Of a DNA stretch of 64,000 nt, positions 15,900 through 32,093 are shown piece after piece. The stretch lies in contig NZ_ATTI01000001.1 in assembly GCF_000419605.1 (NCBI RefSeq), positions 1,277,501-1,341,500 on the forward strand. The letters run 5' to 3'. The notes beneath the pieces are model-generated. The model worked only from the letters and a program-made list of their open reading frames with translations, made no database searches and was not told where the DNA came from. This stretch comes from Sphingomonas phyllosphaerae 5.2. GTDB taxonomy: Bacteria > Pseudomonadota > Alphaproteobacteria > Sphingomonadales > Sphingomonadaceae. The position numbers and the translations under genes are program-made. How positions within the stretch are numbered: position 1 is the stretch's first letter; each line of letters starts with the position of its first letter.

Positions 15900-15947
15900 T
15901 GGTGCACCCGACTGGATTCGAACCAGTGGCCTCTGCCTTCGGAGGGC
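15900..15947. repeat. attL: displaced 3' part of tRNA-Arg
   Basis: Forty-eight bases identical to 32046-32093. They contain the CCA end, acceptor 3' strand, T arm, variable region and part of the anticodon stem of tRNA-Arg read on the minus strand. After C15947 the match stops. This is the tRNA 3' end that was separated from the gene when the element inserted. Confidence 0.9.
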
Positions 15948-16028
15948 TCGGGATTGCCGCTTTTCTGCGGTTTTTCATAGCGCGTTCCTCCTTTGGACGC
16001 GTGAACAGGGCGGGAACTGACGTTCGAA

Positions 16029-16049
16029 GCTGACACATAACTTGCACGG
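16029..16049 (+). repeat. Arm-type direct repeat, left copy
   Basis: GCTGACACATAACTTGCACG and one further G match 31981-32001 at 20 of 21 positions (A/G difference at position 11). The copy lies 81 bp inside attL and just past the integrase stop codon. In the excised circle the two copies would flank the 48-bp core in the same orientation, as integrase arm-binding sites do. Confidence 0.6.
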
Positions 16050-16052
16050 CGC

Positions 16053-17132
16053 TCATCGCCTGTTCGCCGCCTTGAGAGCGTCTTGCATGAAGTCCGGATG
16101 GTGGTGCGCGTAGAGCTCGGTTGTGCGGGTGTCGGTGTGCCCGAGCCAGCCGCCGATCAGGTGAAGCGGCACGCCTCGCTGCGCCATCCAAGTGCCGCAG
16201 GTATGCCGCAGCGTGTGGGGCGTCACGCCTGACAGGCCGGCCCGCTTGCACGCGGAGCCGAAGCTGCCGTTGCCGCGCGACTCAGCGGTACCGTCCCAGC
16301 CGCCACCGATATCTTTGATTCTCGCGCCGCTATCGTGAACCACGTAGCCGAGATCATCGCCGCGCTTTCGAGCCAAGCGGAGGAAGGTCACTAGCCGCGA
16401 CGGAATGGGCTGCCCCCGAACGCGGCGCTTTGTCGTGCGACGGGTGCCGATCGGTGCAAAATCGATGCGTTCGTTATCGAGGTCGACCTGAGGCCAGCGG
16501 AGATCCAGGATCGCGCCCGGTCGAGCACCAGTATAGAGCGCGATGACGATGTAGAGCGGTAGGTAGAGGCGAACGTCACCGCGGCCGGTCCTGGCGGCGT
16601 TGAGTAGGCGAGCGGCTTCGCGGTGTGTCAGCCATCGATCCTTACCTTCAGGCTTCTCGGGCAACTCGACGTGCGGAACACGGGTAAGCCGCCCCTCCTC
16701 GTGAGCGAAGTTGAGCGCGGCCCGGAGTGTTGTCAGCTCTCTGCGCATCGTCGCCGGCGCGCGCTTGCGCCACGTCGCGTAAGCCCGGCAGGTCTGCTTG
16801 GTGATCGCATCGACTGTCTGGTCGCCCCAGAACTCGATTAGCGGTACCAGCGCATAGGCTATCCGCGCAGGATCGGCGGTGTGCGGCGCATGCATGGTCG
16901 CATAGAGATCAAGCGCGAACGCTATCGGGTAAGCGCTTGGGTCAGCGGGACCACTCGGTCGCTCGGCGATGTGCCGTTCTCGAATGAACTCGGCAAGCTG
17001 CGCTTCAGCCTCTCGGCGGTCTGTCGTGCGAGTGCTGCGGCGCCGCTTCTGACCCCCTTCGTACCAGACGATGTAGAGTGAGGGTCGCCCGTCAATATCT
17101 TCGATGCGGGCGCCGAGGTTGGGGCGGGGCAT
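16053..17132 (-). CDS. Tyrosine-type site-specific integrase
   Basis: A 359-residue phage-type integrase. The N-terminal part (WYEGGQKRRRSTRTTDRREAEAQLAEFI) is an arm-binding-like beta-rich domain; residues about 70-155 form the core-binding domain; the catalytic domain carries Arg204 (TGARPGAIL), His306 and Arg309 (HTLRHTCGTW), His332 (WLGH) and the nucleophile Tyr341 (TTELYAHH). All catalytic residues are present, so it should be active for integration and, with a directionality factor, excision at the tRNA-Arg core. It ends 105 bp from attL. Its start region overlaps the excisionase-like gene by 211 bp in another frame. Confidence 0.95.
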   Translation of the reverse strand: MPRPNLGARIEDIDGRPSLYIVWYEGGQKRRRSTRTTDRREAEAQLAEFIRERHIAERPSGPADPSAYPIAFALDLYATMHAPHTADPARIAYALVPLIEFWGDQTVDAITKQTCRAYATWRKRAPATMRRELTTLRAALNFAHEEGRLTRVPHVELPEKPEGKDRWLTHREAARLLNAARTGRGDVRLYLPLYIVIALYTGARPGAILDLRWPQVDLDNERIDFAPIGTRRTTKRRVRGQPIPSRLVTFLRLARKRGDDLGYVVHDSGARIKDIGGGWDGTAESRGNGSFGSACKRAGLSGVTPHTLRHTCGTWMAQRGVPLHLIGGWLGHTDTRTTELYAHHHPDFMQDALKAANRR

Positions 17133-17305
17133 TGGATCTCCTCACGCGCTGCGATCCACGCCAGCGCTTTGTCAGGGTCGAACAGGAAAGCCTTGCCCAG
17201 CTTTACCGCTGGGAGACCTTGATGGCGCATCGTGCGCACAGTGCGTGCGGAAATCCCGCCGATTGTCTCGGCTAGCTGCTCGGCCGTCTGATAACGGCCC
17301 GTCAC
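16922..17305 (-). CDS. Excisionase-like helix-turn-helix protein
   Basis: A 127-residue protein whose first 60 residues form a HTH_17/excisionase-type DNA-binding domain: YQTAEQLAETIGGISARTVRTMRHQGLPAVKLGKAFLFDPDKALAWIA. It probably serves as a recombination directionality factor or a regulator of the integrase. The start ATG (17303-17305) overlaps the TGA of the upstream MerR-like gene. Its last 70 residues overlap the integrase start by 211 bp in a different frame and are low in recognisable structure, so either the tail is dispensable or the integrase begins further downstream than placed here. Confidence 0.78.
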   Translation of the reverse strand: MTGRYQTAEQLAETIGGISARTVRTMRHQGLPAVKLGKAFLFDPDKALAWIAAREEIQCPAPTSAPASKILTGDPHSTSSGTKGVRSGAAALARQTAERLKRSLPSSFENGTSPSDRVVPLTQALTR

Positions 17306-18267
17306 GATGCCGCACCCGCTGCCTCAACTTGCTCGAACCCTGTTCCTAGCGCTGCCGCGATCGCTGCCGGATCAACACCGGGCGCATGAATGTCGAAGTC
17401 ATCGTCCTCGGTCTCACCAAGTCGCACCTCGGCCTCGATCCCCGCACGAGCAAGGCGAAGCTGGATACGTCCTGCCTCTCGCTGTCGCCTGTAGTACGCT
17501 GGCGACTTGAGCCCCCAAACCCGCTGAAACGCGCCGGACACAGGGATGAAAATTGCCGTGCCGAAGTCCTCGGGATTCTGGTCGTTAATACCGCCGAAGA
17601 ACGAGCCGTCCTGGCCGAACGCGACGCGCCAACTTTCATCCGGGTTCAACGCTAGCAGCCAACTGTATGAGCCAGCGTAGCCTGGTGCGAGAATGTCGTA
17701 GACAAGGTCACCGTAAAGGTTGGCAAGATCTTCTTTGCCAGGGCCGAGCCTCTCGGCAACGGCAAGGATCGCTTCATGGCTGTCGTGCTCGCAGTTCCAT
17801 AAAACCTTGTTGACGACCTCGTCTTCCGACTCAGCCGGCCGGCTGGCCGCCAGCCAGTCGCCGTATGCATTCCCACGAAGACCCGCTGGAGGCTTGTCGT
17901 ACGGTCCCCTCAACTTGATCGGAACGGGCGTTCCCGCGCGAAAAAGGGACAGCTGCGTAGCGAGCCGTGCTGCCGTCACATAATTTGAAGGATGCAGTTC
18001 TCGCTTCGCGCCTAATTGCGCAGCTGATTGCAGAAGCGCAGCTAGTGAGCGCAACGATGAGATATTCAGGCGAAAGGCGCGCAACTCACCGAGAATTGCT
18101 GCGATGTTCACCTGCACCCAATCGAAGCGCCTATGGCTGCCCTTACCTGTCCCGCCCTCAGCAGGGATTAGAAGGCCCTCTCGGTTCCAGTAGTTGAGCG
18201 TGGAGGAGTCGACCCCGGTCAGCGTCGCGATCTGGGCTCGGGTGTAAAGCTGGGATTGCGGGTTCAT
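17302..18267 (-). CDS. MerR-like HTH regulator with unknown C-terminal domain
   Basis: A 321-residue protein. Residues about 7-75 are a MerR-like winged helix: YTRAQIATLTGVDSSTLNYWNREGLLIPAEGGTGKGSHRRF followed by a helical stretch. The remaining 240 residues are not recognised; they contain WNCEHDSHEAILAVAERLG and LNPDESWRVAFGQDGSFFGG. Its stop overlaps the excisionase start (ATGA at 17302-17305), so regulator, excisionase and integrase form one transcript. The upstream region carries a two-part motif (18278-18314) that is shared with the gene at 21567-22586, making this protein the best candidate to bind it. It is a probable master regulator of the element. Confidence 0.75.
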   Translation of the reverse strand: MNPQSQLYTRAQIATLTGVDSSTLNYWNREGLLIPAEGGTGKGSHRRFDWVQVNIAAILGELRAFRLNISSLRSLAALLQSAAQLGAKRELHPSNYVTAARLATQLSLFRAGTPVPIKLRGPYDKPPAGLRGNAYGDWLAASRPAESEDEVVNKVLWNCEHDSHEAILAVAERLGPGKEDLANLYGDLVYDILAPGYAGSYSWLLALNPDESWRVAFGQDGSFFGGINDQNPEDFGTAIFIPVSGAFQRVWGLKSPAYYRRQREAGRIQLRLARAGIEAEVRLGETEDDDFDIHAPGVDPAAIAAALGTGFEQVEAAGAAS

Positions 18268-31768: not shown

Positions 31769-31920
31769 CCGAACTTCTTCGCGGCCCGGGCGAAGCACAC
31801 CTGCCGACGCCATGCCTCAGTCGTGATGATCTCAACGGCGCTGGCGATCGCGTTTGCGCCGCCGGACGGCTTCACGTAAAAAGGCGTGAACCGATCGCTC
31901 CCAAGCGCCTGGTCACTCGC

Positions 31921-31948
31921 CCTCGTACCGGTTGCCGCCGGTGCGAGG
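31921..31948. terminator. Strong hairpin near the right end of the element
   Basis: CCTCGTACCGG pairs with CCGGTGCGAGG around TTGCCG, eleven pairs including one wobble. It lies between the replication-like gene start and attR, where it could insulate element transcripts from the tRNA gene. No T tract is present on either side. Confidence 0.45.
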
Positions 31949-31980
31949 GCTTCTGATTCTTGGGGTGGCGGATCAGCGTA

Positions 31981-32001
31981 GCTGACACATGACTTGCACG
32001 G
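31981..32001 (+). repeat. Arm-type direct repeat, right copy
   Basis: GCTGACACATGACTTGCACG plus G matches 16029-16049 at 20 of 21 positions in the same orientation. It ends 44 bp before the attR core. With the left copy it would form the outer arms of attP. Confidence 0.6.
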
Positions 32002-32045
32002 GGCCGCCGTAACGCCCCATAAATTGCTGCTAAGCCGTTGATTTG

Positions 32046-32093
32046 TGGTGCACCCGACTGGATTCGAACCAGTGGCCTCTGCCTTCGGAGGGC
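32046..32093. repeat. attR: 48-bp core within tRNA-Arg
   Basis: Identical to 15900-15947. The element supplied this 3' part of the tRNA, so the gene stays complete after insertion; the 5' part (32094-32122) is original chromosome. Confidence 0.9.

Follow-up and report, generated by a model that had tools for sequence, protein, structure and literature searches.

Why would a small integrated element keep genes for a capsid, a tape measure and a tail completion protein and go without those for packaging DNA and building the rest of a virion? This question is raised by a 16.1-kb element inserted at a tRNA-Arg gene of Sphingomonas phyllosphaerae 5.2. It lies in the window, which is the whole 64,000-nt stretch of DNA that we analysed (GCF_000419605.1, NZ_ATTI01000001.1, positions 1,277,501-1,341,500, forward strand). 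A 48-bp perfect repeat is found at either end of the element and its integrase is intact. We conclude that the element is probably a phage satellite. On the best reading, such satellites contribute trimmed versions of the two proteins that set particle size and depend on a helper for terminase, portal and tail. The borders of the element are marked by these features:

15900..15947, no strand, left attachment repeat of 48 bp, a perfect copy of 32046-32093
32046..32093, no strand, right attachment repeat, which is the 3' part of the tRNA gene
32046..32122, minus strand, intact tRNA-Arg(CCG), the integration target
16053..17132, minus strand, tyrosine integrase of 359 aa (PF00589 6.5e-23, phrog_1 7.9e-56)

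The virion block

The virion genes form a block that combines a head shell protein with parts of the tail interior and is preceded by a small basic gene:

29412..29621, minus strand, 69-aa basic protein that precedes the capsid in three elements
28295..29362, minus strand, standalone HK97-fold capsid protein of 355 aa
28035..28295, minus strand, 86-aa gene with no family match, coupled at both sides
27865..28038, minus strand, 57-aa gene with no family match, coupled at both sides
23816..27865, minus strand, tape measure protein of 1349 aa with a shortened spacer of 460 residues (phrog_7740 1.8e-50)
23274..23819, minus strand, HK97-gp10-type tail completion protein of 181 aa (phrog_5 4e-19)

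From the capsid to gp10 all frames are open, full length and translationally coupled. We scanned 30 open reading frames (ORFs) of the element against Pfam and PHROGs profiles, and none of them scored as a large terminase, portal, tail tube, tip or endolysin. No baseplate gene was found in these scans, and portal, protease and terminase subunits were likewise absent except for weak small-terminase-like scores of helix-turn-helix (HTH) proteins. A sequence-only reading of this DNA had proposed the borders (perfect repeats, intact integrase and intact tRNA-Arg), a coupled operon with full-length capsid, 1349-aa tape measure and gp10 genes, and a lack of packaging, portal, tube and lysis genes. 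These points were borne out, and profile searches of the unknown genes for terminase and portal functions returned nothing beyond the weak HTH scores.

The naming of gp10 is based on PHROGs and synteny. A structure model of the protein (pLDDT 76.8) had no match below E 0.5 in the PDB using Foldseek. Among named phages, neither the capsid nor gp10 had a match at 1e-5; the tape measure hit 103 records, those listed (20) being Vibrio phages that match over 27% of its length. Among plasmids, the capsid had no match and the tape measure had five partial ones, the best being on a Sphingomonas plasmid in which the 39.5 kb read contained no capsid or gp10 homologue. Viral contigs held no relative of the capsid or the tape measure as single queries, and a search of these contigs with capsid alignments found relatives at 28-40%.

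The module recurs in two other elements

Other genomes contain the block in the same order in G530, with no terminase seen, and in the order from capsid to tape measure in G201. G530 belongs to the same genus; its element is 17.5 kb long and has a 20-bp repeat at tRNA-Gln. This element contains a primase gene (phrog_1156), two unknown genes and a head maturation protease gene (phrog_53), followed by a gene for a capsid of a different family from that of the window (phrog_10 4e-33). After the capsid come a tape measure of 1373 aa, a gp10 of 165 aa with the same ATGA overlap, accessory genes and an integrase, so that capsid, tape measure and gp10 follow one another as they do in the window. Neither terminase nor portal was seen in the element, and the sole Terminase_6N and phrog_2 match of the genome is 0.52 Mb away from it.

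G201 belongs to the same family and a different genus. Its 10.2-kb element has 47-bp perfect repeats at tRNA-Arg(TCT) and encodes an integrase, a 675-aa protein, an 84-aa basic protein and a capsid of 352 aa that is 33% identical to the window capsid. Genes of 56, 75 and 75 aa follow and then a 600-aa tape measure (phrog_9483 1.8e-15). There was no Terminase_6N or phrog_2 match in the G201 genome. The basic gene that precedes the capsid links these loci further: the window copy resembles that of L036, a Bradyrhizobium locus (40%, 5e-12), and the G201 copy shows a weaker likeness (36% over 44 residues, 0.009). When a profile of four copies was run against 16,070 short ORFs from the loci examined, no further copy came up.

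We surveyed 295 genomes of the same genus. A capsid match was present in 17 of them, counting the genome of the window. Besides that of the window, the strong matches are open frames of 641-683 aa and the weaker ones frames of 383-553 aa; G413 gave one weak match (1e-15) in a 383-aa frame. Homologues of gp10 occurred in 47 of the 295 genomes and matches to the first 300 residues of the tape measure in 88. Among 29 returned tape measure loci besides that of the window, G530 was the only one in which the gene immediately before the tape measure encodes a capsid. At the other 28, this place was taken by short ORFs, by ORFs with no assignment or by tail-type genes such as ordinary phages have.

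Tape measures with short spacers and separate histories

We defined the spacer of a tape measure as the residues between its N- and C-terminal blocks. It is 460 residues long in the window and 466 in G530, and in ten phages of the same genus it is 524, 558, 609, 637, 639, 685, 697, 739, 872 and 976. A helical residue extends 0.15 nm, so 100 residues correspond to about 15 nm of tail. The spacer table is without G404 and includes nine of the 76 database tape measures, chosen for short length. By a cruder spacer measure (62 rows), P0131, P0132, P0156, P0095 and P0130 fall below the window value.

Trees of the tape measures, from which 18 of 89 rows without the C-terminal block were left out, placed the window protein with P0091 and P0092 and the G530 protein with P0135 and P0138; the tapes of phages were nearer to the G530 group. 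Forcing these six proteins, a group chosen after the first tree had been inspected, into one clade cost 108 log-likelihood units (p-AU 1.3e-25 in the approximately unbiased, AU, test). The gp10 tree likewise kept the window and G530 proteins apart. Thus, the two tape measures appear to be of separate origin, yet have similar short spacers.

The window tape measure has full-length relatives at 98% (1348 aa) and 87% (1345 aa), and its gp10 has relatives at 94% and 81%. The longest contigs of the tape measure and gp10 relatives are equal in size (30,511 and 10,339), suggesting that the two genes probably adjoin on the same contigs. Equal contig sizes also link short capsids and tape measures on three more contigs (13,203; 394,234; 1,747,282).

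Capsids with short N-terminal regions

We aligned the G530 capsid with eight of its ten strong phage relatives, leaving out G504 and G447. Identity was 75-79% in six and 65-67% in two, and all eight have about 60 extra N-terminal residues that are charged and helical-looking. An in-frame stop lies 23 codons upstream of the G530 start. In the window capsid 73 residues precede the core, compared with 323-468, protease included, in 24 protease-capsid fusions; in the three fusions scanned, the protease match ends at residue 144-213. Both elements therefore encode a capsid homologue with an N-terminal scaffold region shorter than that of phage homologues.

In a tree from which two of 129 capsids, G971 among them, were left out, all 24 fusions formed one clade (98/88), and the window capsid fell outside it among standalone proteins. 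The idea that it is a cut-down version of an ordinary fusion capsid is thus unsupported. The capsid of L026, a poorly resolved locus, was nearer to the fusions. Database relatives of the window capsid reach about 60%, compared with 98% and 87% for the tape measure and 94% and 81% for gp10, which suggests that capsids may have been exchanged between elements.

Comparison with ordinary phages of the genus

Ten siphophage prophages of the same genus (G610, G463, G580, G640, G492, G412, G572, G604, G656 and G420) have a homologous tape measure in ten of ten cases and a homologous gp10 in nine. The prophages of G610, G463 and G580 have a homologous capsid as a protease-capsid fusion of about 640 aa, whereas the window capsid stands alone. 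The ordinary prophages also differ in their longer spacers (524-976) and in the genes that separate gp10 from the tape measure. A set of ten phages was read at length: G404 and nine with gp10 and C-terminal tape measure homology. In this set gp10 precedes the tape measure by about 1.9-2.7 kb, and the ORFs between them are of the sizes of a tail terminator, tube and chaperone, roles assigned by position. The order in the window element differs from that of these phages, in keeping with the sequence-only reading, which had called it unlike that of ordinary siphophages. That reading had also favored selection for a reduced gene set over decay, which gains support from the recurrence of the module in two more elements at tRNA genes, whose parts were derived separately and whose frames are all open.

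A probable satellite that may resize its helper

Like phage satellites in general, the window element is bounded and integrated, with an integrase and a replication gene of its own. Its virion and packaging set is incomplete, so a helper would be needed. We propose that growth of a helper siphophage in the cell would lead to excision and replication of the satellite. The satellite capsid, with its short scaffold region, would then join or replace the helper coat and produce a smaller head, as Ccm does in SaPIbov5. The short-spacer tape measure would cause the helper tail tube to be capped earlier, giving a shorter tail, and the satellite tail completion protein would contact the tape measure and the DNA end in the neck, fitting tape to neck. 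Terminase, portal, tube, tip and lysis proteins of the helper would complete the remaining steps. Small particles would favor the 16-kb satellite genome and shut out that of the helper. More tentatively, we suggest a class of alphaproteobacterial satellites that would resize the whole helper particle with a scaffold-trimmed capsid and a spacer-trimmed tape measure, joined by a tail completion partner in the two Sphingomonas-type elements, and that would have arisen more than once by capture from phages.

Several observations weigh against this interpretation. Just two elements of this plan were recognised in the 295 genomes. Short tapes may not be confined to satellites: database proteins of unknown context have spacers of 414-511 (nine shown), some of them at 414-466, and the tape measure of phage G404, which has 1317 aa, resisted mapping of its spacer. 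There is no gp10 in the G201 element, so this gene is not universal in these elements. The nearest database relative of the window capsid is about 60-62% identical, and since none exceeds about 62%, capsid and tape measure may differ in history. No cos or pac site was found, and a comparison of 29622-30460 with phages gave no match. Finally, there was no clean empty site among 19 loci of other genomes, 12 of which include the tRNA.

A different role for the same genes is to serve an anti-phage island, in which capsid, tape measure and tail completion protein would be decoys that co-assemble with the particles of an infecting phage and poison them, protecting the host without any satellite particles. 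As subunits, all three proteins would take part in the assembly of the helper, and two of them are trimmed. Defence by blocking phage assembly at the tape measure is known (Tab, PMC10884400), and phage-inducible chromosomal islands (PICIs) have tail-assembly inhibitors (Tai, PMC11364771). However, Tab and Tai are neither tape measures nor capsids, and each element keeps replication genes (O-like or primase-like) beyond the needs of a defence cassette. We regard a purely defensive island as unlikely, and a decoy role would be compatible with a satellite that also interferes.

It is quite improbable that the element is what remains of a siphophage after a deletion, with three virion genes retained by chance. 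Homologues of all three do occur in ordinary prophages of the genus and the left flank of the integration site is variable. By contrast, a remnant should have broken or randomly lost genes, and here genes that are apart in phages are adjacent, reordered, coupled and open. The same plan arose in G530 from separately derived parts, and the window capsid is not a cut-down fusion.

A joint system with two partial elements of the same genome, L238 and L239, is very improbable: L238 has small and large terminase and gp10-like genes and L239 has a large terminase (TerL) and, by eye, portal-like and capsid-like genes, but no tail tube or tip was noticed in either (by eye, with two Pfam scans and terminase searches), and the absence of a terminase match in G201 and the distance of 0.52 Mb to the single one of G530 indicate that a partnership between terminase and element is not general. 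A tail-based particle or tailocin is unlikely because no tube, tip or baseplate gene was found and the capsid is kept, and so is a gene-transfer agent (GTA), since the element has no terminase or portal and a separate GTA-like cluster, identified by eye, lies at about 0.29 Mb.

Other genes and the integration site

The remaining features of the element are:

16922..17305, minus strand, excisionase-like HTH protein with a weak small-terminase-like score (phrog_66 7e-7, phrog_57 1.1e-4)
17302..18267, minus strand, MerR-type regulator of 321 aa (PF13411 2.2e-7)
19109..19423, plus strand, frame that is repressor-like in its C-terminal part (phrog_4738 1.3e-5)
21355..21555, plus strand, small HTH/excisionase-like protein of 66 aa (phrog_1840 1.3e-4)
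21567..22586, minus strand, accessory protein of 339 aa from a family of unknown function (phrog_13198 3.5e-4)
22768..23259, minus strand, 163-aa protein, lipoprotein-like by eye, with no family match
29622..30447, no strand, stretch without a recognised gene or RNA that may hold control or packaging sites
30448..31209, minus strand, protein at the position of a helicase loader with no family match, its start probably further in
30935..31813, minus strand, lambda O-like replication initiator of 292 aa (phrog_678 4.8e-32)

No RNA family matched in 29622-30460. On the right, at 32046-33285, tRNA-Arg and an endonuclease III-like gene are conserved in several relatives and the opposite side varies, suggesting an integration hotspot. 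On the left, beyond the repeat region, the flank had no match in any of the 19 loci of other genomes.

Other standalone capsids and terminase-bearing loci

Standalone capsids also occur in other settings. L036 has an O-like initiator (phrog_391 4e-6), the basic gene and a capsid, together with a weak match to a small terminase subunit (phrog_1496 8.5e-5). An integrase and AlpA were recognised there by eye, and no tape measure was seen. A small element in G971 (L230:4707-9791) has an integrase (PF00589), AlpA-like and primase-like genes by eye, a capsid and a 74-aa gene, and no tape measure was seen there. In Sphingomonas gellani (L028:1192-2695), a copy of the 69-aa basic gene lies directly before a gene whose 407-aa product is similar over its first 37 residues to the N-terminus of a phage capsid (57%, 2.7e-7), and an integrase-like ORF is found downstream; this locus may be another satellite. 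At seven loci in prophages or viral contigs (L021, L030, L037, L038, L046, L075 and L111; for example L021:7708-10960, L030:7827-11101 and L037:1187-4743), a full protease-capsid gene is preceded by a short, standalone one. Certain phages thus apparently encode two capsid proteins, the additional short one being perhaps a vertex protein or the product of a Ccm-like gene. For four other standalone capsids, all from viral contigs (L037, L038, L046 and L131), dN was 0.12-0.18 and dS 0.61-1.05. Of 90 database relatives of the window capsid, 68 have 330-390 aa. Together, the sequences point to a large family of standalone HK97 capsid proteins, for few of which the gene neighbourhood was seen.

The genome of the window has three large-terminase matches, none of which is inside or beside the element. 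L238:94-17862 (G000:C1 ~2,826,000-2,844,000) is a partial element adjoined by tRNA-Met that has an integrase, a small-terminase-like gene, TerL (PF17289 3.8e-18) and a gp10-like gene (PF04883 7.8e-6); no capsid, portal or tape measure was noticed in it. L239:8341-19899 (G000:C1 ~2,184,000-2,196,000) is a partial element that, read by eye, combines a large terminase with portal-like and capsid-like genes and showed no tail genes, reminiscent of a capsid-forming satellite or a short-tailed prophage. L237 (G000:C1 ~292,000-308,000) is the GTA-like cluster, with terminase, portal, capsid and tail genes by eye.

Comparison with known satellites

The following comparisons draw on the available parts of the cited papers. 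Capsid-forming PICIs are likewise integrated satellites with their own HK97-type capsid gene that rely on helper tails, and they encode portal, protease, connectors and both terminase subunits but no tail genes (PMC10690885). The window element, by contrast, has a tape measure and no portal, protease or terminase subunits apart from the weak HTH scores. Among the possibilities that the sequence-only reading had considered, a phage satellite fits best, though not a capsid-forming PICI in that sense, and a tail particle or a gene-transfer-like system is unlikely. PICMI, a phage-inducible chromosomal minimalist island (PMC10803314), and the 16.8-kb satellite AH14b (PMC4936722) are also small integrated elements with an integrase, AlpA-type or replication genes and helper particles; as described there, neither encodes capsid remodelling or structural head-neck-tail genes.

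A closer parallel is SaPIbov5, a cos-type Staphylococcus aureus pathogenicity island (SaPI). Its Ccm protein, 355 aa long, is a homologue of capsid proteins whose delta domain has 87 residues, compared with 128 in the helper; it occupies the pentamers, yields T=4 heads in place of prolate ones and cannot by itself form capsids (PMC8569155). Such islands share with our elements an integrated state and a capsid homologue with a shorter N-terminal region, which in SaPIbov5 shrinks the helper head. No protease of their own is reported in the available text of that source. The window and G530 capsids appear to fit the Ccm pattern. Unlike the cos-type SaPIs with Ccm, our elements are in alphaproteobacteria and no cos site was found. 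In SaPIbov5 particles Ccm is described as the sole protein that comes from the island (PMC8569155); our elements pair the capsid with a tape measure and, in the window and G530, also with a tail completion protein. In the neck of 80alpha/SaPI1 the tail completion protein binds the tape measure and the DNA end, and HK97 gp10 is its named counterpart (PMC11661146).

A literature search, mostly of titles and abstract openings, found no report of a satellite-encoded tape measure, and none is described for satellites in the available parts of PMC8569155, PMC11661146, PMC12409344, PMC11364771, PMC10690885, PMC11389934, PMC10803314, PMC4936722 and PMC10884400. As far as these sources go, the head part of the plan has a precedent in Ccm and we found no reported precedent for the tape measure part. 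If our interpretation is correct, these elements are a natural experiment that can show which proteins are enough to determine particle size, and the G530 capsid and its phage relatives are close pairs without and with the scaffold region. Known satellites reshape the head or borrow the tail; the elements described here would make tail length a target of phage parasitism as well.

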